Part shown: one piece after another, positions 1-18,408 of the stretch
Layout: each line of letters starts with the position of its first letter
Position numbering within the stretch: position 1 is the stretch's first letter
DNA from: a virus
Direction: 5' to 3' (one strand)
Virus record (IMG/VR): IMGVR_UViG_3300013132_005829
Coordinates: 1-22,338 of that record
Length of the DNA: 22,338 bases
Notes under the pieces: model-generated
Databases searched by the model: none
What the model was told of the DNA's origin: nothing
The model's input: the letters and a program-made list of their open reading frames with translations, nothing else
Program-made: the position numbers and the translations under genes

Positions 1-19
1 GGCGGGGGTTTCGTCATTT

Positions 20-544
20 ATGGCAAAGATTACCAAGACACAACCGTTCACTCGGTATGACACCTATGACCACATAGGCGAACTTGTCTCCGACGTTGCC
101 TCACTGTCAGATGAGGAGTGGGAACGGTTCACTCACCGACAAAAGAACATAATTGGGCACAGGGATACCAGAACAATACCGTTGTTGTTTGATCCCGTTC
201 GACTGAGCCGACACATTGAGCACCCGCTTTACAACATGTTTAGTCATCACATCTCTGCTATTGCTTCCATTGTCGGCGGTTCCGCCAAGAGGGCAAACCT
301 TGTCGCTCTATTGGCGAAGTCCGAGATAGCACCACACTACGACAAAGGGGACTTTCTGGAGTCAACTAGGCGCATTCACGTTCCGGTAGAAACAAATGAG
401 GGATGTTTATTTACCGTCGGAAACGAAATACGGCACATACCGTTTGGTGAAGTGTGGGAGATAAACAACACGGGCATGGAACATAGTGTCGCAAATAAGG
501 GTCATTCTCGTCGTATTCATCTGATTATTGACGTTCGGCACTGA
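20..544 (+). CDS. Asp/Asn beta-hydroxylase-like 2-oxoglutarate oxygenase
   Basis: A 174-residue protein resembling the aspartyl/asparaginyl beta-hydroxylase family, which are Fe(II)/2-oxoglutarate dioxygenases that hydroxylate protein side chains. The cupin core runs from about residue 95 to 174. It shows H106-Y-D-K-G, R118-I-H120-V-P, a G-E-V-W-E-I-N-N block at 143-150, H155-S-V-x-N and a closing R164-x-I-H-L-I-I-D. H106 and H155 are the likely iron ligands and R164 the likely 2-oxoglutarate anchor. The first 95 residues show no known motif. No strong ribosome site precedes the ATG, only a G-rich tract. It is followed after 14 bases by the sigma-like gene on the same strand. The substrate is unknown; phage members of this fold have been proposed to modify virion or host proteins. 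The family call is firm, the role is not. Confidence 0.8.
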   Translation: MAKITKTQPFTRYDTYDHIGELVSDVASLSDEEWERFTHRQKNIIGHRDTRTIPLLFDPVRLSRHIEHPLYNMFSHHISAIASIVGGSAKRANLVALLAKSEIAPHYDKGDFLESTRRIHVPVETNEGCLFTVGNEIRHIPFGEVWEINNTGMEHSVANKGHSRRIHLIIDVRH

Positions 545-558
545 TGTAATCTATACAT

Positions 559-2217
559 ATGCCGAAAAGAGTTGTTTTTGATCCAGATGCGAGGGATGCG
601 GATGGGGATTTGACTGTGCAGGACGGCACGATTTTTGAGCGACCCGACAAACCCAAAATTCCAACACCTGATGTTTCGATTACAAGACCGAAGCGAAATT
701 TGTCGGTGGTGGGTAGATATAAAAGAACAAGTCCGATACGGCCGACCAGCGTTTCGGAAAGAGATATCTCCACCGGCGGACCGCTCAAAACCGCGGAAAT
801 TCTCAAGCAGGACCTGCTCAAAGGGTTGACAGATGACGAAAAGAAGTCGTTCCTCGGTATAGATGACGGAACGCTGAAGAAAATGAAAAAACAGAATGCT
901 TCGATCAATTCTTTTGCCGCGGACAACATAGCAATCAACGCTTTTGGTTATCACCCGATGGAGATTTGGGGTGATGCATACCTGGACGAGGAAATTTTGT
1001 TTCCCAAGAAAAGCCAGATCCCGCCGCGACGATTGACTGACTTGGAAAACAGATATCTTGAGCTGCGGGCGCAGGGAAAAAATGATTCAGAAATAGCGAG
1101 AAAATTCGGCGTTTCAAGAGAGAGAGTCAGGCAGATAAAAATCAACTCCTTGAAGAAACGGGATCAAGAATCGCTACTCGAGGACGAAGAGCTTGAAAAA
1201 CAAACTCGGACAGAAACAGGACTCAGGATCGCCGACGCGGTTTTTCTGGATACGGGAAATAGTCCCACTGGCCTGATAGGAAGAATGACCGGCGACGTTC
1301 CAGATGACCACCCGGTTTTCGAAACCCCGCAAGAAAGAGAAAACCGCGAACAAGCATTCGCCGACTTTATTTACGAGGCTTATATCGAGCCTTTCCAATA
1401 CGACTTTTGGGAGCAGCAGGGGGTTACCCCAACAGATGATGATCTGTTCGAATTCATGAACACAATCGACGAAGACGAACTTCGTCAACGTTTCGAGACA
1501 GAAAAAGAAATCAGCTCATGGGGTCTTGAGTACGATGAAGAGGGAAACGTCTCGATAACGGAATGGGCTGAGCAGGGGTTCCTTTCAGAGGATGATTGGG
1601 ATGGTTGGTTTGACGGCCCCATGGCGGACACGGTTTCAAGGACAAGTCGCGACGGCGGAAACAACCAGGGTTCATTATTTGACCCGAACCAATGGTCGAA
1701 TTACACGCAAAGCGATGAATACACCACCTATGGCGGAACAGATGATTTGATGGTGCGCAATACAGAGCAACACCAAAAATTCAGCTCCTGGGCGACAGCA
1801 AGGGATTGGAAAAAATTCCACCATGAGCATTTCGACTGGTGGGCATTTCCGATTGACGAGGTTTCCAACACTTACGGTGAAAGATTCCGTGTCCCCGAAG
1901 ACGAAATCAAAAAACTCAGATCAGACCAGGAATTCTTGAAGCGCCTTGACGAAAATCTACAAAATGCCGCTTCCGCCTATGGGTGGGACATCAAACAGGG
2001 GCGTTGGGTACCCGACGACGTGCGAGACCAAGATCAGGTCCCACAAACACTTTCCCAAATTCGTTTATACAAAATGGCAAGATCCGCCATGGTGTTCGGA
2101 AGATGCTCGCACTTCAGGTCGCTTCAGCGAATGTACGACAATCTTTCATCGTTTGGTTGGTACAAAGGCCAGGACGAAGGGTTCTGGGCAAAAGACCACC
2201 CATGTAAACAAAGTTAG
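559..2217 (+). CDS. Sigma-70 region 4-like HTH protein with a Trp-rich C-terminal module
   Basis: A 552-residue acidic protein of unknown function. Residues about 157-200 form a helix-turn-helix of the sigma-70 region 4.2 / LuxR type, with the recognition-helix block G-V-S-R-E-R-V-R-Q-I-K. No region 2 (core-binding) is visible, so this is not a complete sigma factor. Residues 210-400 are acidic and tryptophan-rich with no recognisable motif. Residues about 420-552 look like a separate module opening with H-E-H-F-D-W-W-A-F-P-I-D, followed by a helical stretch ending in a W-Y-K-G-Q-D-E-G-F-W segment. I recall similar FDWW-FPI modules in other phage and bacterial proteins but cannot name the family. 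A TAATCT box lies 6 bases before the ATG and there is no clear ribosome site, so a leaderless transcript is possible. Its stop codon overlaps the ribosome site of the nuclease gene. Confidence 0.75.
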   Translation: MPKRVVFDPDARDADGDLTVQDGTIFERPDKPKIPTPDVSITRPKRNLSVVGRYKRTSPIRPTSVSERDISTGGPLKTAEILKQDLLKGLTDDEKKSFLGIDDGTLKKMKKQNASINSFAADNIAINAFGYHPMEIWGDAYLDEEILFPKKSQIPPRRLTDLENRYLELRAQGKNDSEIARKFGVSRERVRQIKINSLKKRDQESLLEDEELEKQTRTETGLRIADAVFLDTGNSPTGLIGRMTGDVPDDHPVFETPQERENREQAFADFIYEAYIEPFQYDFWEQQGVTPTDDDLFEFMNTIDEDELRQRFETEKEISSWGLEYDEEGNVSITEWAEQGFLSEDDWDGWFDGPMADTVSRTSRDGGNNQGSLFDPNQWSNYTQSDEYTTYGGTDDLMVRNTEQHQKFSSWATARDWKKFHHEHFDWWAFPIDEVSNTYGERFRVPEDEIKKLRSDQEFLKRLDENLQNAASAYGWDIKQGRWVPDDVRDQDQVPQTLSQIRLYKMARSAMVFGRCSHFRSLQRMYDNLSSFGWYKGQDEGFWAKDHPCKQS

Positions 2218-2645: not shown

Positions 2646-2876
2646 ATGAACATGAACAGTTACACCAACGAGGATGAACTCCGCGAAATCAAAACGACTC
2701 TCGACTCTCTTGCCGTATTGGTAAAAGCGCTCGGTGAACAATTGAACAGGGTTGAGGCAATGATGCAGAAATCCTTGCCCACGGTCAGCGAACGGCTCCA
2801 GGCCGTGTCCGGTTCAAAGTCGAGCGCAATAGCAAACATCCCGAACATAGGTTCCTTGACGACCAAAACTAAGTAA
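2646..2876 (+). CDS. Small coiled-coil protein, function unknown
   Basis: A 76-residue protein I do not recognise. Residues about 8-45 have heptad-like hydrophobic spacing (I-x-x-x-L-x-x-L-x-x-L-x-x-x-L-x-x-x-L) typical of a short coiled coil; the tail is Ser/Lys/Ile-rich. A second ATG two codons in is an alternative start. TAGGCT lies 6 bases before the first ATG, which fits the leaderless -10 pattern seen elsewhere here. Its end overlaps by 8 bases the end of the convergent PAPS reductase gene, so the two transcription units meet here without a spacer. Confidence 0.55.
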   Translation: MNMNSYTNEDELREIKTTLDSLAVLVKALGEQLNRVEAMMQKSLPTVSERLQAVSGSKSSAIANIPNIGSLTTKTK

Positions 2877-4026
2877 GGTCGTCCTTGGCGTCCAACATAT
2901 TGGCGTCAGTTTGCTCAACTGCTTGCTGAATCGAATACGCCTTTGTTCCCGGACCGATCGGGTTGACTGCCGTTATATGGAATTCGTGCATCAGGATGTT
3001 CCGAATCAGCCAATGAACCGGGTAAGAACGCGGATCTCTGGCGTGCTTTTTACGAAACTCGGCCGCAAAAGCCATCGCCCGTCTATGAAGACCTGGGGTG
3101 ACTACGTTGTCGTCAATGCACATCTTCACCCCATCCCAACCGTAGGTTGAGTACCTTCGGATGCAAGCCTCAATATCAAAATCTTTCCACCACAACCGTT
3201 GGGCGTCGATGTGCGGAAAGCACTCGACAAGACGGTCATAGAACTCGGGCTCTGTCGCAATAACATCCCCGATCCGGCGTATTGCAACCGCGTGTAAGGG
3301 TATTCCGACACGGGAATTGCTTCCCGTGATAGCCGCATAGTCGTAATACTCGCAGTATGTTGCTTTATGTTCGTCGATTATGAACTTGAGTACGTCGTCG
3401 GTTGTCCAGTCGTAGATGACCTTGGCAAACCTGAGCGGGATTGAGCGTTTCATTTTGTATGGGGCGACGATGTAGTTTTCGTGAAGTTTTTGAACGCAAG
3501 ATCGGTATCGCATCATTGACTCATTTGCCCGTACCCCCATAACGAAAGCCGTACGACCCTTTTTGCCTTGCAGCGTGTAGTAGTCGATCGAGTCAGGCAC
3601 GGCCTTGGACGGATCTAGCCCGAAATGTTTAGCCGTGATTGCGTGGGAAGGCATATCTCTAACCAACCGGCCGTCTTTGCGCCGTTGCTCCGACCAAAGA
3701 AGGCAATACTCACGGCGACCCAAAACCCATATCTCCTGCCCCTGAGGAAGGCAATACCACTCCATGTCAACCCAGTCATAGTCACGCACTTCTTCCATAA
3801 AGCGCACAACTGCCGGACTCACCATTTCTTCGTCTCGGAAAATTACCTTCACCGGGCCGAGTTTGCGCTCCTCGTGAATCTCTTTGGCCAGATAAAGGAC
3901 TGCCGTCGAATCTTTACCACCGGAAAATTGAACACAGACCGTGTCGAATGTGTCGTATACGTGTCGCATTCGTGCGCGAGCAGCTTCAACACAGGAAACG
4001 TCGAGAAATAGCCTCTGTCTAGTCAC
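2869..4026 (-). CDS. PAPS reductase-fold protein, DUF3440/IbrA-like
   Basis: A 385-residue member of the adenine nucleotide alpha-hydrolase / phosphoadenosine phosphosulfate reductase superfamily. The N-terminal R-L-F-L-D-V, then A-A-R-A-R, then Q-F-S-G-G-K-D-S (PP-loop at residues about 35-40) follow the layout of DUF3440 proteins such as IbrA. The C-terminus (W-L-I-R-N-I-L-M-H-E-F) also fits that family. The PP-loop binds ATP or PAPS. Family members are mostly uncharacterised, and some relatives (DndC) act in DNA sulfur modification. I chose the GTG at 4026: its GTGACTAG overlaps the stop of the upstream zinc-ribbon gene by 8 bases, and the conserved homology begins just after it. An open frame extending to 4146 only reads the upstream gene out of frame. 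It is last in the leftward block, downstream of a ParB-domain gene and a methyltransferase gene. Confidence 0.85.
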   Translation of the reverse strand: MTRQRLFLDVSCVEAARARMRHVYDTFDTVCVQFSGGKDSTAVLYLAKEIHEERKLGPVKVIFRDEEMVSPAVVRFMEEVRDYDWVDMEWYCLPQGQEIWVLGRREYCLLWSEQRRKDGRLVRDMPSHAITAKHFGLDPSKAVPDSIDYYTLQGKKGRTAFVMGVRANESMMRYRSCVQKLHENYIVAPYKMKRSIPLRFAKVIYDWTTDDVLKFIIDEHKATYCEYYDYAAITGSNSRVGIPLHAVAIRRIGDVIATEPEFYDRLVECFPHIDAQRLWWKDFDIEACIRRYSTYGWDGVKMCIDDNVVTPGLHRRAMAFAAEFRKKHARDPRSYPVHWLIRNILMHEFHITAVNPIGPGTKAYSIQQAVEQTDANMLDAKDDLT

Positions 4027-4375
4027 CAGTGCACAGCTTGCACGTGGTCTTGAACCTACCTGAGTTTCTCTTGAGTGTTGCACCCATTTGTCCGCAGAGC
4101 TCACACTTGTAGGAAGAAACGGACTCGTACACCCCCACGATTTCATTCATTTTTCTGCGGAAGTGCTCCATGCCTTTTGATGGGGAAAAGTAAAATCGCA
4201 GGGTTCCGAACTTTTCCTTTATCTGAAAAACTTCGTAATCTGGGTCGATTGCGGCAAGCTCGAGGTCGCAGTCGATTATCAACTGATACCAACCACGGTC
4301 ACAGCGTATTTCAACTGGATAACCGGCGGCGAATCTTGACTTTACTGCTACCAACTGATGAGTCTTATCAATCAT
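4019..4375 (-). CDS. Zinc-ribbon phage protein, function unknown
   Basis: A 118-residue protein with two C-terminal CxxC pairs (C91/C94 and C112/C115) likely to bind one zinc. The middle (R-G-W-Y-Q-L-I at 27-33 and I-K-E-K-F-G-T-L-R-F-Y at 52-62) matches a layout I recognise from many phage hypothetical proteins, in which a gW..li segment is followed by a KEKFG-LRFY segment and a cysteine pair. No function is established. The start is the ATG at 4375, because ATGA overlaps the stop of the glycosylase-like gene by four bases; longer starts would run back through that gene. Its own stop overlaps the GTG of the PAPS reductase gene, so the three genes are probably translated as a coupled set. Confidence 0.72.
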   Translation of the reverse strand: MIDKTHQLVAVKSRFAAGYPVEIRCDRGWYQLIIDCDLELAAIDPDYEVFQIKEKFGTLRFYFSPSKGMEHFRRKMNEIVGVYESVSSYKCELCGQMGATLKRNSGRFKTTCKLCTGD

Positions 4376-4782
4376 GCTGGCCAATAATAGCCGAGATCGT
4401 CCGCCACCTCCCAGTTGAATTGCGAATAGTGGATCGGGTCTTTTCGCAACAGGTTGGACTTGTGGCTGTTGTGGAAGGTCTCGTCCCCGAACCACTCGGG
4501 TAGGTCTTTCGAGTCAGGCGACACGAGTGCCTGGATTTTGTGCATACAGGTGTCGTGGAAACCGTGCATTTGCCAGACTTGACACATAACAATGCCGTAC
4601 GAGCTCAGGCCGGCTTCGTGGCCACGCCACATTTTGGTGGCTGGGTGCGAGACCCAACCTTTTGATTTCCCCGTCAGGGCGTTCAAGATTTGCAGGGTTT
4701 CAACTCGCTGCTTACCGAGTCGCTTGACATCGAGGCAGGTGGCCGATCTTATAAAACTGTCATAGGGTAAAAATGTTTGCAT
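4372..4782 (-). CDS. Pyrimidine dimer DNA glycosylase-like protein (MSMEG_6728 type)
   Basis: A 136-residue protein with the layout of the MSMEG_6728 / pyrimidine-dimer-glycosylase-like family: an N-terminal M-Q-T-F-L-P-Y, then L-D-x-K-R-L-G-K-Q-R-V-E at 17-28, then H-P-A-T-K-M-W-R-G-H at about 46-55, and a C-terminal S-N-L-L-R-K-D-P-x-H-Y before Y-Y-W-P. Related proteins include T4 endonuclease V, but a DNA-repair activity for this subgroup is presumed rather than shown. TAGAAT lies 7 bases before the ATG with no ribosome site, so a leaderless transcript is likely. A perfect 8-base inverted repeat covers that promoter and the start codon, which suggests its own regulation. It overlaps the zinc-ribbon gene by four bases. 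Confidence 0.78.
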   Translation of the reverse strand: MQTFLPYDSFIRSATCLDVKRLGKQRVETLQILNALTGKSKGWVSHPATKMWRGHEAGLSSYGIVMCQVWQMHGFHDTCMHKIQALVSPDSKDLPEWFGDETFHNSHKSNLLRKDPIHYSQFNWEVADDLGYYWPA

Positions 4783-4801
4783 GTCAATAATTCTATTGAC
4801 A
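4782..4801. promoter_or_regulatory. 8-bp inverted repeat over the -10 box and start of the glycosylase-like gene
   Basis: The arms TGTCAATA and TATTGACA are perfect inverted complements separated by ATTC. Read leftward, the element contains the -10-like TAGAAT (4790-4795), seven bases before the ATG whose first base is 4782. It lies in the 30-base gap between the ParB-domain gene and the glycosylase-like gene. The symmetry, size and position fit an operator for a dimeric repressor; a hairpin at the mRNA 5' end is the alternative. No clear -35 is present at 17 bases. Confidence 0.5.
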
Positions 4802-4812
4802 ATAAATCGGAA

Positions 4813-5556
4813 TCAAAACTCTGCGTGTGCCTCAATAAATTCAATAAGTTTTGACGCCGTGGTATCCCCTTCGTAAACCGGGGATGCGCGCAAGAACCTG
4901 ACAAACTCATACCACCGACGCTGTTGCTCTGCATTATCAAACACCAGGGTGTACTGAACCACGGCTTTTTGACCCAGGCTTGCCGTGGCCGCACCCATCA
5001 CGGCAGCTTTATTTTGGTCGAGCTCTACTGGATTTCGCGCCTCGGTTTCCGTGGTTTGCGCCGAGGAAACAGATATTGGCAACGGATCAACGATCGTGGG
5101 AGCGACATATCCCCTTTCGTCGTCCGCGTTGATGTAGGCGACTTCTTCCATCGCCGCCATCTCAAATTCATCCCACCCAAGATCGCTAATAAGGTCCTGG
5201 AAATTTATTGACACATCCTGAATCATCTGAATTAACGACGCCGCATCAACCGACCCGAGTTCGCTCGTCCTGTTGTCGGCAAGGGCGAAGGCGATAGCCG
5301 TGTCATTATCTTCATCCATTTGTACGGCCGCAATTGAATCCCAACCCAAAGACTTTGCAGCCTGAAGCTGGTGATTGCCGGCAATCACAGTAAATGTACC
5401 GTCATCATTTGGCCTTACGACGATGGGCTTTACTTGCCCAAACTCCGCATAAGACGCGGTGATTGCGTCAACATTGCCGCGACGCGGATTCGATTCCAAC
5501 GGAACGAGTTTTTCTATTGGAAGAAGGAGTGATTTGAGCGATGGATTAATCTTCAT
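4813..5556 (-). CDS. ParB N-terminal domain (ParB/Srx-like) protein
   Basis: A 247-residue protein. The ParB/sulfiredoxin-like domain covers about residues 9-100, with I-E-K-L-V-P-L-E-S-N-P-R at 14-25, G-N-H-Q-L-Q-A-A at 60-67 (the GxxRxxA box, with Q in place of R), and A-D-N-R-T-S-E at 93-99. No DNA-binding HTH like that of chromosomal ParB is present. The C-terminal 60 residues form a separate conserved-looking helical region (V-Q-Y-T-L-V-F then W-Y-E-F-V-R-F-L). Phage proteins of this type are often fused to, or lie next to, DNA methyltransferases and are sometimes annotated as nucleases or chromatin proteins. Here the methyltransferase gene lies upstream on the same strand and a DUF3440 PAPS reductase downstream, which recalls IbrB/IbrA pairs. 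Confidence 0.82.
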   Translation of the reverse strand: MKINPSLKSLLLPIEKLVPLESNPRRGNVDAITASYAEFGQVKPIVVRPNDDGTFTVIAGNHQLQAAKSLGWDSIAAVQMDEDNDTAIAFALADNRTSELGSVDAASLIQMIQDVSINFQDLISDLGWDEFEMAAMEEVAYINADDERGYVAPTIVDPLPISVSSAQTTETEARNPVELDQNKAAVMGAATASLGQKAVVQYTLVFDNAEQQRRWYEFVRFLRASPVYEGDTTASKLIEFIEAHAEF

Positions 5557-5761
5557 CTGAAATGTTTTTGGTTACGTTGCGTCGTTTTGTCTTGCCCACA
5601 GGACCGTGAAGGTCGTGTGTCCTCAGCTCGTGGCCGATCGGTAAACGCTGACGTTTTCTTCCAGCCTTGGTTCCCGGAATCATCTCAACAACCTTCGTAA
5701 TCGGATGGATTCGCCTTCGTTGCTGAGCGCCTTTTGCGGTTGATTTCTTGCCTTTTGCCAT
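5546..5761 (-). CDS. Small highly basic protein
   Basis: A 71-residue, strongly Lys/Arg-rich protein (opening M-A-K-G-K-K-S-T-A-K-G, later G-R-K-R-Q-R) with no family I recognise. The charge suggests nucleic-acid or ribosome binding; that is inference. The ATG at 5761 is preferred over an upstream TTG (5782) because TATTCT lies 6 bases before it, matching the leaderless pattern of the window, and because the protein then starts at the basic segment. The gene overlaps the ParB-domain gene by 11 bases and follows the methyltransferase gene after 40 bases. Confidence 0.5.
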   Translation of the reverse strand: MAKGKKSTAKGAQQRRRIHPITKVVEMIPGTKAGRKRQRLPIGHELRTHDLHGPVGKTKRRNVTKNISDED

Positions 5762-5801
5762 GGGCAAAGAATAGTTGCGCAAGAGCGTTTCTGGCGGATG
5801 A

Positions 5802-6389
5802 CTACCTCAGGGATTTGAGCCGTTCGGCGGCGATTTCGCAATATGTCTTGTCGATCTCCACGCCTATTGCCCTTCGACCGGTCTGTTTTGCGGCCAGCAA
5901 CGTTGTTCCACTGCCACAAAACGGGTCAATGATTACCTGGTTTGGAGTGGTGTGATTAAGAATCAAACGTTTCATTAGAGAAAAGGGTTTTTCATATGGA
6001 TGTACAGTCTCACCCTCAACCAGGTCGGTAAATACATTTGTGTACTGACTCCAGTGCCGATCCGTGTTCCACGCAAGATTGCCACCGAAGAAAATCATTT
6101 CCACGAACCGCGAATACCTTCGCGAAGTATTTTTCGTGCTGATCGGTTTCACCCAAAAGCCGAATTGATTTGAATTTACCCACTGATTTTCCGGAGGCAT
6201 GAACACAATTTTTCCTTTGGCTATTCGTGTAAATTGCTGGTCCAAGGACTCAATCTTTTCACCGTCCAGGTCATATGGCGGGTCCGTTATGACGGCGGCC
6301 GCAAAACCGGCCGAGAGCGAAGGCAAGAACTCAAACGCACTTCCCTTTACAAGAACGACCGAGCCGTCCTCATAAAAAGTCTTGAACAT
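5802..6389 (-). CDS. DNA N4/N6-methyltransferase (beta class)
   Basis: A 195-residue S-adenosylmethionine-dependent DNA methyltransferase. Catalytic motif IV is D-P-P-Y at 36-39 and the AdoMet-binding motif I is D-P-F-C-G-S-G-T-T at about 155-163. Motif IV before motif I defines the beta group. It would methylate the exocyclic amine of adenine or cytosine. An M-P-P-E-N-Q-W box follows motif IV. At 195 residues it is short, with little room for a target-recognition domain; this is typical of phage orphan methylases. No restriction endonuclease gene is apparent nearby. A TGATG junction couples it to the membrane protein gene upstream. Protection from host restriction or marking of phage DNA is the likely role, perhaps together with the ParB-domain protein two genes downstream. 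Confidence 0.88.
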   Translation of the reverse strand: MFKTFYEDGSVVLVKGSAFEFLPSLSAGFAAAVITDPPYDLDGEKIESLDQQFTRIAKGKIVFMPPENQWVNSNQFGFWVKPISTKNTSRRYSRFVEMIFFGGNLAWNTDRHWSQYTNVFTDLVEGETVHPYEKPFSLMKRLILNHTTPNQVIIDPFCGSGTTLLAAKQTGRRAIGVEIDKTYCEIAAERLKSLR

Positions 6390-6649
6390 CAGAATGGCTC
6401 AGGATTCAGCCAAATACTGCACCAATTGCGGCATCGTTTTACATCATAAAACAGAAGAGTCAAATACGGAATTATGAAACCCCAATAACCCAAAACTATT
6501 ATTGTGTAAAACACGACCGGGTATTTTATGAAAATGAGAATCCATCCTGCCCACATTTGGCGGTTGGTGTGTCGGTAGCCGTACAGCGCAACAACCTCAA
6601 AAAGGGCCAGCATGATGCCGGAGATTATTTCGTTCCACCCAACGGCCAT
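6389..6649 (-). CDS. Small integral membrane protein
   Basis: An 86-residue hydrophobic protein with two or three predicted membrane segments (roughly residues 8-25, 34-57 and 58-70) and a short basic, tryptophan-containing tail. I do not recognise a family. The ATG at 6649 lies two bases after the upstream stop (TGAGTATG), with an AGGGA site about 12 bases before it. An in-frame TTG three codons earlier is less likely. It overlaps the methyltransferase start by one base. A membrane protein inside a DNA-modification block is unexpected; superinfection exclusion or envelope effects are possible but unsupported. Confidence 0.6.
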   Translation of the reverse strand: MAVGWNEIISGIMLALFEVVALYGYRHTNRQMWAGWILIFIKYPVVFYTIIVLGYWGFIIPYLTLLFYDVKRCRNWCSIWLNPEPF

Positions 6650-6651
6650 AC

Positions 6652-7173
6652 TCAGCAAATTTCCCTAATATCGAGCAAGTCTGACTGTGGGACCGCGTAC
6701 GCAGCCGGCCGATCAGAATTTCCCATGTTGTCGAGATACTTGGGGTCTTTGGCCTGAACACCCTGCACGTACCCATGGATAACGTAGTTCGGACACCTGC
6801 CGGTGACCAGAACAAACCGGTGATAATCATCGTCTTCCGGCCTCACGATGAGTTTTCCGTTCTTGTAGGCGGTCCATCTGATTTGCATCAACCCAGAAAG
6901 ATCTGGCAATTTGTACGTGCCGTTTGAGCCATCCCAATAAATGTCGAAGTGTTTTGCGACAGCCATTTCCGCACATGCGCCCTCAATGTGAATTTCCCAT
7001 CCATGGCCATTGGAAAATCCATGCTTGTTTTTGTTACCTCGAAAAATCGATGTGGTGACGCGCCGTGCACCGACGCTTGCGGCCGTCTGGTATTCGTGCG
7101 GCTCCAAGACGACGGCTACCGCGTACTTGAAATTGCCTTGGTCAACTACGGAGTCAGTAACTATTTTTGTCAT
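6652..7173 (-). CDS. Conserved phage-type protein, possible PD-(D/E)XK-like fold
   Basis: A 173-residue protein. It has the acidic and basic spacing E-G-A-C-A-E-M-A-V-A-K (about 64-74), then D-L-S-G-L-M-Q-I-R-W-T (91-101), then L-I-V-R-P-E-D-D-D, L-V-T-G, V-I-H-G-Y, and a C-terminal P-A-A-Y-A-V-P. This order resembles phage hypothetical proteins I know of, and the E...E...D...xIR pattern is compatible with a restriction-endonuclease-like fold. I cannot show catalytic competence. Its ATGA start overlaps the upstream stop by four bases, and its stop lies two bases before the membrane protein gene. If it is a nuclease, it would be a natural partner for the nearby methyltransferase, but that is a hypothesis only. 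Confidence 0.6.
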   Translation of the reverse strand: MTKIVTDSVVDQGNFKYAVAVVLEPHEYQTAASVGARRVTTSIFRGNKNKHGFSNGHGWEIHIEGACAEMAVAKHFDIYWDGSNGTYKLPDLSGLMQIRWTAYKNGKLIVRPEDDDYHRFVLVTGRCPNYVIHGYVQGVQAKDPKYLDNMGNSDRPAAYAVPQSDLLDIREIC

Positions 7174-10135: not shown

Positions 10136-10267
10136 ATGGCTAAATTTATGCGAATATCGATTACCGTATTTACATTCATCGTCACCCTTGGAATAGTTTT
10201 TTCGCAAGTACAGAAAAAAATAGTCTCCAAACGATTTCTACATATTCCGGAGGGTATGTGGAAATGA
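10136..10267 (+). CDS. 43-residue membrane peptide, leaderless
   Basis: A short gene encoding a peptide with a basic start (M-A-K-F-M-R), a hydrophobic segment at about residues 7-22 (I-S-I-T-V-F-T-F-I-V-T-L-G-I-V-F) and a basic tail (K-K-I-V-S-K-R). It may be a single-pass membrane peptide or an uncleaved signal anchor. Support comes from the near-consensus promoter six bases upstream and the ATGA overlap of its stop with the MazG start. No homology is claimed. Confidence 0.6.
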   Translation: MAKFMRISITVFTFIVTLGIVFSQVQKKIVSKRFLHIPEGMWK

Positions 10268-10590
10268 CGTTTGACGAATACCAGCTGCGTGCATGTAAAA
10301 CCGCCGTATACCCCGAAAAGGATGCAATCAATTATTTGGTGCTCGGCCTAGTTTCAGAGGCGGGAGAAATCGCTGGCAAACTGAAGAAAGTGCTCCGTGA
10401 CAGGGAAGGCGTCATCGGGGTTTACGAAAAACAAATGATTGCCGAAGAAATAGGTGATGTATTGTGGTATGCCGCCATGCTGGCCGTCGAATTGGACACA
10501 ACGCTGTCGTCAATCGCGCGTGATAATGTTGAAAAACTCCAATCGCGCCAAACAAGGGGCGTCCTGGGGGGATCGGGAGACAACAGGTGA
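10264..10590 (+). CDS. MazG-like nucleoside triphosphate pyrophosphohydrolase
   Basis: A 108-residue all-alpha NTP pyrophosphatase of the MazG-like family, expected to hydrolyse (d)NTPs to NMP and pyrophosphate with Mg2+. Metal-binding residues are visible in S-E32-A-G-E35-I and E61-E62-I-G-D65-V. The C-terminal K-L-x-x-R-x-x-R-G-V-L-G-G-S-G-D-N-R is typical of the phage and bacterial single-domain form. The ATG at 10264 gives a four-base overlap with the membrane peptide and has CGGAGGG about nine bases upstream; a GTG at 10258 is an alternative. Phage MazG proteins have been linked to nucleotide-pool or alarmone control. It overlaps the next gene by GTGA. Confidence 0.85.
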   Translation: MTFDEYQLRACKTAVYPEKDAINYLVLGLVSEAGEIAGKLKKVLRDREGVIGVYEKQMIAEEIGDVLWYAAMLAVELDTTLSSIARDNVEKLQSRQTRGVLGGSGDNR

Positions 10591-11414
10591 CAGAGAGACA
10601 CAACAGGATTCTTTCCTACGGGGGCGGGGTTCAAAGCTCGGCACTAATCATCCTTGCGGCACTTGGTGAAGTCCCACCGATCGACTACGCACTATTCGCA
10701 AACACCGGAGACGACAGCGAACATCCGGGAACATTGACGTATGTCCGCGAAATAATGATTCCGTGGGCCGCCAAGCATGGCATCGAAGTAAAAGAACTTC
10801 GCCGATACCTCAGAGATGGCACAGAGCAAACCCTTTGGGGGCGCATGATGGACCACAAGGGAGACACGCTCCGCGAACCAATCCCCATTTACGGCTACAC
10901 CGGGAAACCGATGCGCCGTTCCTGCACCGCAGACCACAAAATCAAAGTCGTCGGAAAATGGATTGAAAAAAACTACGACAAATCCGTACTACCGATCGAG
11001 GTCTGCGTAGGCATTTCGGTCGACGAAATAGAGCGCGCCGGCCGCGGCAGAGACGAGCGGTGGGAAAAACGCATCTACCCGCTACTCGACATCGGCTTCC
11101 ACCGAAGCCACTGCGTCAGCGTTTTCGACCGGGTCGGTCTGCCCGTGCCACCAAAATCATCGTGTTTCTTCTGCCCATTCCACTCGATACCCACCTGGCG
11201 AAAACTTCGCCGCGACGAACCGGAGCTTTTCGAAAAAGCGGCCCAACTCGAAGACAAACTTCTCGAGCGACGACGCAACCGCGACAAAGGCGAGGTGTAT
11301 CTCACAGGCAAAGGAGCCCCACTCAGGGACGTCATAACAGCCGAACAAGACGAACTATTCGGCCCGGACGCCTTCAACCAGGGCAAATGTGACGAGGGAT
11401 ACTGCTGGACCTGA
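10587..11414 (+). CDS. Phage-type PAPS reductase-fold protein
   Basis: A 275-residue adenine nucleotide alpha-hydrolase superfamily protein of the phage type in which the PP-loop reads S-Y-G-G-G-V-Q-S-S (10-18). Other marks are F-A-N-T-G at about 37-41, R-R-S-C113-T-A-D-H-K, S-S-C193-F-F-C196-P-F-H and a C-terminal C-D-E-G-Y-C pair. The cysteines could bind metal or a cluster. Such genes are common in actinobacteriophages and usually called phosphoadenosine phosphosulfate reductase, but sulfate assimilation has not been shown; thiolation or modification chemistry on another substrate is possible. The GTG start overlaps the MazG stop by four bases. It is distinct from the DUF3440-type protein at 2869-4026, so this window carries two branches of the superfamily. 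Confidence 0.83.
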   Translation: MTERHNRILSYGGGVQSSALIILAALGEVPPIDYALFANTGDDSEHPGTLTYVREIMIPWAAKHGIEVKELRRYLRDGTEQTLWGRMMDHKGDTLREPIPIYGYTGKPMRRSCTADHKIKVVGKWIEKNYDKSVLPIEVCVGISVDEIERAGRGRDERWEKRIYPLLDIGFHRSHCVSVFDRVGLPVPPKSSCFFCPFHSIPTWRKLRRDEPELFEKAAQLEDKLLERRRNRDKGEVYLTGKGAPLRDVITAEQDELFGPDAFNQGKCDEGYCWT

Positions 11415-11477: not shown

Positions 11478-11639
11478 ATGGAATTTGACCGTAGCAAACT
11501 GCGCTTCAAAACAGGTGAACTCGTCCATCCGCCATGCGACATCGCAAACATCAAAGAAACTAAGATCAAAATATGGGCATTGAAATTCACGAAATTGAGA
11601 TCGGGGAAATTCCGCAAACCCCAACAAGCGGCAGCATAA
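11478..11639 (+). CDS. Possible 53-residue basic ORF overlapping the oxygenase gene
   Basis: An open frame with a good ribosome site (AAGGGG about nine bases before the ATG). The peptide is basic towards the C-terminus, with no family recognised. It overlaps the next gene by 67 bases in another frame, so either only its first 30 codons are constrained or it is not a real gene. The overlap could instead provide translational coupling to the oxygenase, which lacks its own ribosome site. Confidence 0.35.
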   Translation: MEFDRSKLRFKTGELVHPPCDIANIKETKIKIWALKFTKLRSGKFRKPQQAAA

Positions 11640-12340
11640 ACGACCCCCAGGTCAAACGCGCATCAGACGCCCTAATCGACCACGCCAAAAAATACGGGTT
11701 CCCGGTCGCCTACAAACAGGAACAAAACGGCCGCCTGGTCCACAACCTCATCCCCAACAAACAACAAGAAGACCAACAAATCTCCGGATCATCCAGAACC
11801 CAACTCCAATTCCACACCGAATCAGCCTTCCACCCCTACAAGCCCTCCCACGTCCACCTGCTCTGCCTCAGGGGCGACGAACAAGCCGCAACAACCTACG
11901 CCGAACTCGAGAACATCCTCGACGACTTGAGCCCGCTCGCCATCGAAACCCTCCAAAAACCCTGGTATCAAACTGGTATCGACAAAAGCTTCCGGATCGG
12001 CGGAGCGGCCGACAACAAAATGATCATCACCCCGCTACGCCGAACACACTACGGATGGGAACTCTGCTACGACGAAGAACTCACAACCGGAACAAACCCG
12101 CCGGCCCAAGAATCCCTAAAAGCCCTGCAACGCGCCATCCACGACGTCAAAAAAGAAATAACCCTCAAAACAGGTCAACTACTCACCATCGACAACAAAA
12201 CAACAGTCCACGGTCGCAAACCATTTCAAGCCCGCTACGACGGAACAGACAGATGGCTCCAAAGAGTCCTCAGCATCAAACCACTACCACCCCAAAGCCA
12301 CCTAGACGGCAACATCATCACGACGCAATTCTCGGGATGA
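11573..12340 (+). CDS. Clavaminate synthase/AsnO-like Fe(II)/2-oxoglutarate oxygenase, N-terminally short
   Basis: A 255-residue protein resembling the clavaminate synthase-like branch of the TauD superfamily, which includes free amino-acid beta-hydroxylases (asparagine oxygenase, VioC). It has the H81-x-E83 motif in F-H-T-E-S-A-F-H-P-Y, distal H213 in V-H-G-R-K-P-F and R227 in G-T-D-R-W-L-Q-R. Spacing of 14 between H213 and R227 agrees with the known enzymes. K-Q-E-Q-N-G-R-L-V at 48-56 matches the region before the active site. About 75 N-terminal residues found in full-length relatives are absent, and an in-frame TAA at 11561 excludes a longer start. TAAGAT lies six bases before the ATG and no ribosome site is seen. 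Its 3' end overlaps the convergent gene by 23 bases. Base composition is strongly A/C-rich on this strand. Confidence 0.8.
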   Translation: MGIEIHEIEIGEIPQTPTSGSINDPQVKRASDALIDHAKKYGFPVAYKQEQNGRLVHNLIPNKQQEDQQISGSSRTQLQFHTESAFHPYKPSHVHLLCLRGDEQAATTYAELENILDDLSPLAIETLQKPWYQTGIDKSFRIGGAADNKMIITPLRRTHYGWELCYDEELTTGTNPPAQESLKALQRAIHDVKKEITLKTGQLLTIDNKTTVHGRKPFQARYDGTDRWLQRVLSIKPLPPQSHLDGNIITTQFSG

Positions 12341-16608: not shown

Positions 16609-18408
16609 TTAGAAATCCTCGTCGGCACCCGGGGTCTTGCCCCCGAAATCTTCTTTCATAAATTCTAGTGTCTCGAAGGGGAACTGTACGCCACGCTTCA
16701 TCTTGAGCGGCCACGGGCGCCTATCGCGTGCACCCCTGAAATGTCGCACGTCATAAACGTACTCGGACCCACCCAACTGATCTGGGGACAACGCCAACCC
16801 GAACTCCGGCCAACGCGACCATACGGCTGACCCGAAGGGACGCAGTTCTCGTGATGTTTGCGACTGACCCAGCGGCGCGTGATGCTCAATCCACAGAGCG
16901 CAGTCATAGACGTCGCGTATGTAGTCGAAGAACTTGGCGACCTCGACGGCTAAAGCTTCACTCGTCAACGTCCCAGTATCGGCGTACGACTTGTACAGAG
17001 GACCCACGCACAGCAGCTGCGGGCGCACCTGGTCGACCGTTTGCTCGAAAAGCGCACGTCCAACCGGGGACATGAGGTCCAAACCGGAAGGCTTCATCAT
17101 CAGGTGCGAATCCGACCTGATTTCGGTTCCGTGCGGCGCGCGATCGCGGGCGAACCTCAAGGCTTTCTTCATTATCCAACGCGACGTGCGTCGAATGATG
17201 CGTTCCGGGTTTTCCAGGTCGATTGTCAGGGTCCTTATGGGCTTCATCGGCTGGAACGTGAACGGATGCAGCCCCACCGACGACAGAATCGCCACCTGGC
17301 GCAGGAGCATCGTTTTTCCTACGCCCTCGGCCGCGACGACGATTACACGCTCCTGCTTTTCGATCAGACCGGGAATCACCCACTCGTACGTGTCGTCAAC
17401 CGTTTCGTCGATGAACTGTTGCCATTCGACGAGGCGTCCCTGATCTCCGAAGTCCATGACGCCGATTCCGTCGAGATGCGCACGGGCTCGCGATATCTTC
17501 TGCTCCAGTTTGATGTTGCGACCGAAAATTTCGGTGATTGTGGCGAGTATGTCTTCCTCTTCGGTGCTGTCATCCTTGAGGTGCGCGATCTGTTCTTCTG
17601 TCGGCGTGAAGTCGAGTTCTATGAGTTCTTCCAACGCGTGCCCGGAGTTGACGTGATCGGTCACGTCTTTTCCGTACGGGCTGACATAGACACGAACGTC
17701 TGCGCATCCGGCGGCTTGCAGCACGCGTTGCACGCTGACTGCGTGAGTCTTGCCGGCTTCGTCGTTGTCTGCGACGATCATTACAGCAGCCGCGTCAGCC
17801 AAGACGTCGGTGAACTGCTGTTCCCATGTTCCGGCTCCGCCTGCTGTCGTCGCCATGATGTTGAGTTGTTCGAGCGTGTCGGCGTCTTTCTCGCCTTCGA
17901 CTAGCCACACGGGTTCGCCGTATTCGATCGCCTTGAGGATGATTGGCAGGTTGTACAGAACGCGCTGTTCTTTGGGGATGATGCTGTAGATGTATTTACC
18001 CGGTTGGTTCGGGTCCGGCCGACGTTGCGAGAAACCTTTGCTTCCGTCTTCGTATTTGTATCTGATTTTTTCGTACAGTGTTTGGAAGTCTTTGTCCGTG
18101 TACTGGTAGACCTTTTCGACTTTACGTGCGCCCCTGTTGTCCTTTTTGCTCACGGGTACGACTTTGTCTTCGTACAGGTCTTCCATCTTCATGTTCATGT
18201 ACCCGACGATTTGTTCGACGGTGCACGGGGAGCCGTTGTGGCATTTGATGAGGACTTGATCGTTCTTGCCGACGCCTACAGTGAGTGAAGGGTTGTTGTC
18301 GTCGTTCCTGCAGGGGCACTTCGCTGCCCAACCCATGCCGCTCCGCGTTACGCCATCCAGGCGATCCAGGAATTCCTGGACGTGCTGCGGAACGATTATC
18401 GAGCTCAT
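16609..18408 (-). CDS. Bifunctional primase-helicase (TOPRIM plus RecA-like ATPase)
   Basis: A 599-residue replication protein. An N-terminal CHC2-like zinc site (C31-P-C33 and C56-H-N-G-S-P-C62) is followed by a TOPRIM domain with V-E171-G-E-K-D and A-D214-N-D216-E-A-G, and from about residue 345 a RecA/RepA-like AAA ATPase with Walker A A-E-G-V-G-K-T at 360-366, then I-D-L-E-N, and a Walker B-like L-L-C-V-G-P about 110 residues later. It would make RNA primers and unwind DNA at the fork, like the T7 gp4 class but with a different helicase family. The ATG overlaps the WhiB stop by four bases (ATGA), so its expression is tied to WhiB. The downstream HTH gene starts directly after its stop. 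Confidence 0.87.
   Translation of the reverse strand: MSSIIVPQHVQEFLDRLDGVTRSGMGWAAKCPCRNDDNNPSLTVGVGKNDQVLIKCHNGSPCTVEQIVGYMNMKMEDLYEDKVVPVSKKDNRGARKVEKVYQYTDKDFQTLYEKIRYKYEDGSKGFSQRRPDPNQPGKYIYSIIPKEQRVLYNLPIILKAIEYGEPVWLVEGEKDADTLEQLNIMATTAGGAGTWEQQFTDVLADAAAVMIVADNDEAGKTHAVSVQRVLQAAGCADVRVYVSPYGKDVTDHVNSGHALEELIELDFTPTEEQIAHLKDDSTEEEDILATITEIFGRNIKLEQKISRARAHLDGIGVMDFGDQGRLVEWQQFIDETVDDTYEWVIPGLIEKQERVIVVAAEGVGKTMLLRQVAILSSVGLHPFTFQPMKPIRTLTIDLENPERIIRRTSRWIMKKALRFARDRAPHGTEIRSDSHLMMKPSGLDLMSPVGRALFEQTVDQVRPQLLCVGPLYKSYADTGTLTSEALAVEVAKFFDYIRDVYDCALWIEHHAPLGQSQTSRELRPFGSAVWSRWPEFGLALSPDQLGGSEYVYDVRHFRGARDRRPWPLKMKRGVQFPFETLEFMKEDFGGKTPGADEDF

Follow-up and report, generated by a model that had tools for sequence, protein, structure and literature searches.

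An IbrA-like ATP pyrophosphatase and two ParB-family proteins form a conserved phage gene set that is split in an IMG/VR virus record

The closest described counterparts of the genes considered here are IbrA, a PAPS-reductase-like PP-loop protein of the DUF3440 family, and its ParB-domain partner IbrB, which occur in E. coli and many prophages; pairs of this type are widespread in Pseudomonadota, Bacillota and Bacteroidota, and IbrB lay beside IbrA in 78 of the 80 bacterial loci that we retrieved. ParB-family proteins are also found in DNA-modification pathways, DpdB and DndB among them (PMC12839542, PMC10853773), DpdB being a ParB-like ATPase that works in 7-deazaguanine DNA modification (PMC12839542) and DndB the ParB-superfamily protein that accompanies the PP-loop ATPase DndC in Dnd phosphorothioation. 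In phage DNA hypermodification by the CmoX/CmoY carboxymethylcytosine pathway, a ParB-domain (ParBc) gene near CmoX stands beside an AMP-forming enzyme (PMC12783734). We analysed a 22,338-base IMG/VR virus record, IMGVR_UViG_3300013132_005829 (hereafter the window), which is classed by IMG/VR as linear and is therefore probably a fragment, and which combines an IbrA-like PP-loop gene with a ParB-domain gene in a run of six co-directional genes on the minus strand (2869–6389). In order of transcription these encode a methyltransferase, a small basic protein, the ParB-domain protein, an MSMEG_6728/Pyr_excise protein, a zinc-ribbon protein and the PP-loop protein; all six are real genes, and several overlap by a few bases in an operon-like manner. 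Library scans agreed with the original prediction, made from the letters of the window, as to the direction and the domain types of the six.

The PP-loop protein of the window is homologous to IbrA (27% identity to that of a Streptococcus phage, E 5e-19), and IbrB is the constant partner of such proteins both in bacteria and in the phage gene triads described below. Unlike IbrA/IbrB, however, the phage set has a third gene, encoding a second ParB/Srx-superfamily protein that we call ParBA, and IbrB is unlinked in the window’s clade. The DUF3440 domain (PF11922), which had been predicted for the window protein, has no match anywhere in the window, although it is present in 17 of 54 aligned relatives. 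Unlike in Dnd, the PP-loop family of the window lacks invariant cysteines; the window protein itself falls far under the cut-off of the DndC model (TIGR03183; 25.1 versus 290.4 bits), and no match to DndA, DndD or DndE was obtained among the proteins scanned. The partner of the window ParB protein is a PP-loop enzyme, unlike that of DpdB, and no DpdA/TGT-like or preQ0 genes were seen among the window proteins scanned. CmoY, for its part, is a homologue of asparagine synthetase and not IbrA-like, and neither CmoA nor a C5-methyltransferase was identified among the same proteins.

Using the IbrA-like PP-loop gene (PAPSR) as a seed, we collected 80 close IMG/VR loci. ParBA, PAPSR and IbrB stood in a row in 27 of them, ParBA and PAPSR without a nearby IbrB in five (all near the window), and neither ParB gene was nearby in 31, the other 17 being truncated by a contig end to one or both sides. 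When loci were seeded by IbrB instead, the whole triad was present in 53 of the 65 that had a full-length PP-loop gene. Five isolate phages carry it: Arthrobacter phage Kovu, Mycobacterium phage Phlyer, Mycobacterium abscessus prophage prophi79-1, Bacillus phage 035JT001 and Rhizobium phage L338C. Among the bacterial loci retrieved, in which the IbrA-IbrB pair is otherwise by itself, ParBA genes were seen in two actinobacterial ones only (L182 and L183). The pairing of PP-loop and ParB genes is more than chance, and the data support a genuinely conserved set of phage IbrA-like and ParB-family proteins. Parts of the triad are already annotated as IbrA/IbrB in phage records, and the element added here is the membership of the second ParB protein. 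Phlyer (gp4/gp5) and L338C share with our set both the PP-loop lineage and the order ParBA-IbrA-IbrB, but their annotations leave ParBA outside it, as a ‘ParB-like partition protein’ (Phlyer gp1) and as a ‘DNA methyltransferase’ (L338C_088). The latter protein (KF614509; L085:3685–4380) is of ParBA type and without methyltransferase motifs, and its label is likely a misannotation.

All-against-all comparison resolved the ParB proteins around the phage IbrA-like gene into two families, ParBA upstream and IbrB downstream. Members of the second family also accompany IbrA in the IbrA-IbrB pairs of Streptococcus and Flavobacterium phages and of Mycobacterium phage Gaia. The window protein (ParB_N, PF02195, 39 bits; phrog_723, E 2e-38) scored 247 bits with the ParBA model versus 91 bits with the IbrB model, and carries the motifs AGNHQ and ADNR, not IIDGxHRW and RxNRAKG as in IbrB. 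Judged by these scores and motifs, it is a member of ParBA and not the IbrB orthologue that it had been taken for, and no IbrB-type open reading frame was found in the 22 kb window. The proposed association of an IbrA-like protein with ParB-family proteins stood for phages in general, but not the identity of the window ParB protein with IbrB. An AlphaFold model of ParBA (predicted local distance difference test score, pLDDT, of 83) consists of a ParB/Noc-type domain and a separate C-terminal domain; Noc and ParB were the nearest folds, and the Foldseek list also includes sulfiredoxin and free serine kinase.

The triad genes are retained together even when they are unlinked. Whole-record searches recovered all three in each of the seven PAPSR-seeded records longer than 60 kb. 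In the longest record of the window’s clade (G002, 54.8 kb), an intact IbrB gene lies at 8.5 kb among late-region genes, about 39 kb away from the PP-loop gene and ParBA at about 48–53 kb; two further records (G007, 137.8 kb, and G009, 105.7 kb) hold all three genes in dispersed form, and in another (G025, 128.6 kb) some 85 kb separate ParBA from PAPSR and IbrB. The control set comprised 21 records picked by their Pyr_excise and methyltransferase genes, 14 of them longer than 60 kb. PAPSR was found in none of the 21, IbrB in one (a weak, partial match) and a clear ParBA-like gene in two, and among the 14 long records neither IbrB nor a PAPSR of this family nor a clear ParBA was present. In a maximum-likelihood tree the window’s clade was nested inside the linked triads (support 99/92), as was the dispersed group; the linked order is therefore older and the arrangement in the window derived. 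The window contains two members of the core trio, ParBA and the IbrA-like gene, and would represent a split, derived copy of the set, the third gene, IbrB, having been moved elsewhere in this phage clade.

The PP-loop protein (PAPS_reduct, PF01507, 38 bits; phrog_2302, E 9e-68) more likely starts at GTG 4026 than at ATG 4146, because its relatives have the same start in the alignment. Twenty residues are invariant among the 54 relatives, including the SGGKDS loop, E67, GxRxxESxxR and DW...D (with D65 kept in 53), and none of them is a cysteine. An invariant ATP site without an invariant cysteine supports adenylyl-transfer or ATP pyrophosphatase chemistry and disfavours thiotransfer or reduction by the protein’s own cysteines, so that adenylation appears the better candidate than sulfur chemistry. 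Of the ATP- or sulfur-activation as in DndC that had been proposed at the outset, the ATP part fits the conserved residues, while the sulfur part is disfavoured. The predicted model (pLDDT 90) gave CysH as its top fold match, together with FAD synthase; by sequence profile the closest solved proteins were FAD synthase and CysD, two adenylyltransferases of the N-type ATP pyrophosphatase class, at 13–18% identity.

Additional enzymes accompany the triad in some phages. A GNAT acetyltransferase lies in or beside it at 19 viral loci and an S-adenosylmethionine (SAM)-dependent methyltransferase (phrog_11826) at eight, the two never occurring together. The acetyltransferase is small, was seen among loci L134–L169 (e.g. 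L138:5498–5869 and L150:4184–4570) and often has an HNH-like zinc protein alongside. The ‘methyltransferase’ beside the set in prophi79-1 and Bacillus phage 035JT001 was rejected as a DNA amino-methyltransferase, being a class I SAM-methyltransferase of the phrog_11826 family.

Taken together, the conserved ATP site, these tailoring enzymes and the occurrence of ParB proteins in modification pathways lead us to favour, tentatively and with somewhat less than even confidence, a reading of the triad as a phage-specific three-gene version of IbrA/IbrB that modifies phage DNA or nucleotides. The IbrA-like enzyme would split ATP and adenylate a substrate, its own cysteines not being used for sulfur, and the two ParB/Srx-fold proteins, binding nucleotide and DNA, would steer or gate this reaction; where other phages have an acetyltransferase or SAM-dependent methyltransferase as well, that enzyme might then decorate the product. 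Reached through an adenylated intermediate, the end product would in our view most likely be a chemical modification that protects or marks phage DNA or nucleotides. A more specific version, which we consider rather doubtful, is that the triad and its interchangeable acetyltransferase or SAM-methyltransferase constitute an unrecognised phage DNA hypermodification pathway, in which a PP-loop enzyme lacking catalytic cysteines would adenylate a base or a handle on it, the two ParB/Srx-fold NTPases would direct the reaction on DNA and the tailoring enzyme would cap the product. If true, this would give a biochemical role to the long-unexplained IbrAB pair, including YbdN/YbdM of E. coli. A 2013 survey of phage base-modification systems in Nucleic Acids Research (NAR) reportedly discusses PP-loop enzymes in phages. 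With the second ParB protein and the co-retention of the genes through rearrangement, a minimal unit is defined for expression and assay, and, as genetically tractable isolate phages carry the triad, the question is directly testable.

Several points weigh against modification as the function. A literature search gave no modified base for any triad phage, and to our knowledge none is known in any phage with the triad; what is known of cellular IbrAB concerns gene expression and not DNA modification, and almost every one of 79 bacterial loci has the cellular pair but no ParBA. The mutual exclusion of acetyltransferase and methyltransferase is weak evidence, the loci being few and related, and common ancestry among the PAPSR-bearing phages inflates the counts of co-occurrence. 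One IbrB-seeded record of 79 kb (G023) bears IbrB without PAPSR and ParBA, although it may be a fragment. The presence of IbrB in the window’s own phage is predicted from relatives, the window being a 22 kb fragment.

The main rival is a transcriptional role, as for IbrAB, which we regard as fairly unlikely. The ParB proteins would then act as DNA clamps that depend on nucleotides, and transcription in the phage or the host would be switched by a nucleotide signal that the IbrA-like enzyme makes or consumes. Annotations of E. coli IbrA and IbrB name them co-activators of prophage gene expression (IbrAB is discussed in PMC4541368), the predicted fold of ParBA comes nearest to the CTP-dependent clamps Noc and ParB, and in Kovu and Phlyer the triad adjoins the terminase at the late-region boundary; regulation alone, however, would leave the full ATP-pyrophosphatase site and the extra acetyltransferase or methyltransferase unexplained. 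A counter-defence, exclusion or toxin-antitoxin-like module directed against host nucleotides or competing phages seems improbable. The patchy distribution of the set would suit such a module, a Listeria DUF3440/ParB pair has been put forward as a putative toxin-antitoxin system by guilt by association (PMC7020466), and nucleotide-degrading and nuclease activities occur among ParB/Srx proteins (PMC10853773), but the PADLOC matches to systems went no further than the PP-loop, ParB and methyltransferase domains held in common, and the three genes survive rearrangement rather than being lost as a cassette. An auxiliary metabolic gene for assimilatory sulfate reduction, i.e. a true PAPS reductase, is suggested by the Pfam name PAPS_reduct, by the PHROG annotation and by the top fold match to CysH; given that the ECGxH catalytic cysteine motif of the CysH type is absent from the PP-loop protein, that its 54 relatives share no invariant cysteine and that the partnership with ParB genes is constant, we consider it the least credible of the explanations.

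The original prediction had united the PP-loop, ParB, DNA methyltransferase and dimer glycosylase genes in one DNA-marking system, a reading that is largely refuted and to which we attach very little probability. The adjacency itself is shared by the window and its two near-copies, L001 and L002, both of which have the methyltransferase (PF01555, N6_N4_Mtase, 90 bits). This gene is absent, however, from the near relatives L004–L006, and PF01555 was detected in one of 23 records searched, the other 22 being without a methyltransferase. In L004 it is cleanly missing between the same neighbours, the p89 and small basic genes lying only about 30 bases apart, which points to one site of insertion or loss. 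The next closest relatives of the methyltransferase (L264 and L265, 80% identity) have no PP-loop or ParB gene in the flanks examined, and on these grounds it was rejected as a partner. The Pyr_excise protein (PF03013, 72 bits; NCBIfam NF038085, MSMEG_6728_fam, 174 bits versus a cut-off of 100) was encoded near the PP-loop gene in 22–23 of the 80 close loci, and its gene sometimes overlaps the PP-loop start. Of 80 Pyr_excise-seeded loci, however, only 3, all near the window, contained the PP-loop gene, and Pyr_excise was likewise rejected as a core partner. Co-occurrence beyond chance was found for the PP-loop and ParB genes and not for the methyltransferase or Pyr_excise genes, whose relatives are mostly without a PP-loop gene, and the methyltransferase and glycosylase-like genes can be set aside as misleading partners.

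The zinc-ribbon gene was present in L001–L004 and absent from L005 and L006, with ParBA and the PP-loop gene about 10 bases apart in L005; library scans of its product gave nothing but weak PADLOC noise. The methyltransferase, Pyr_excise and zinc-ribbon genes all lie outside the conserved set, the methyltransferase and the glycosylase-like gene being recent or independent neighbours. The small basic gene stands directly upstream of ParBA in L001, L002, L004, L005 and L006 and is conserved in the window’s clade only. As a separate observation, an SNase-like gene overlaps a Pyr_excise/MSMEG_6728 gene in viral contigs L338–L344 (e.g. L339:5600–6001 and 6001–6405), a recurrent pair that is independent of the PP-loop gene. 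Positions of the genes in the window are listed in Table 1.

Table 1. Genes of the six-gene run and its upstream flank in the window (aa, amino acids)
Feature	Position	Strand	Family	Remarks
IbrA-like N-type ATP pyrophosphatase (PP-loop, ‘PAPS reductase’ fold)	2869–4026	-	PF01507, phrog_2302	385 aa; GTG start; SGGKDS loop; core
Small zinc-ribbon protein	4019–4375	-	no family assignment	118 aa; between ParB and PP-loop genes; variable
MSMEG_6728-family protein with Pyr_excise domain	4372–4782	-	NF038085, PF03013	136 aa; accessory neighbour
ParBA, ParB/Srx superfamily, upstream type	4813–5556	-	PF02195, phrog_723	247 aa; own C-terminal domain; core; not IbrB
Small basic protein	5546–5782	-	no family match in library scans	78 aa from TTG (ATG at 5761); overlaps ParBA start
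Compact beta-class N6/N4 DNA methyltransferase	5802–6389	-	PF01555	195 aa; TDPPYD and DPFCGSGTT motifs; lineage-specific insertion
Flanking gene (p89)	6389–6658	-		89 aa; upstream context common to clade
Flanking gene	6652–7173	-	phrog_18407	173 aa; upstream context common to clade

An actinophage origin of the window is plausible only; the nearest relatives of its primase-helicase (16609–18408) were Arthrobacter phage proteins, at 28–30% identity. A 552-aa protein encoded at 559–2217 (+), and conserved next to the SNase gene in the window’s clade, was considered as TerL and rejected, the sole motif found in it being a single sigma-region-4-like helix-turn-helix; it otherwise belongs to no known family. 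A second, distinct PP-loop protein is encoded at 10587–11414 (+; phrog_424, E 2e-32; GGGVQSS loop), behind a MazG-like gene at 10258–10590, and its cysteine set (SCTADHK, SSCFFCPF) might accommodate an Fe-S cluster. Unusual cargo for phage DNA are two genes of the Fe(II)/2-oxoglutarate oxygenase type, at 11573–12340 (+) and 2–544 (+), which resemble hydroxylases of free amino acids, the matches being to GntD/VioC (164 bits, short of the equivalog cut-off) and to an Asp/Arg hydroxylase domain.

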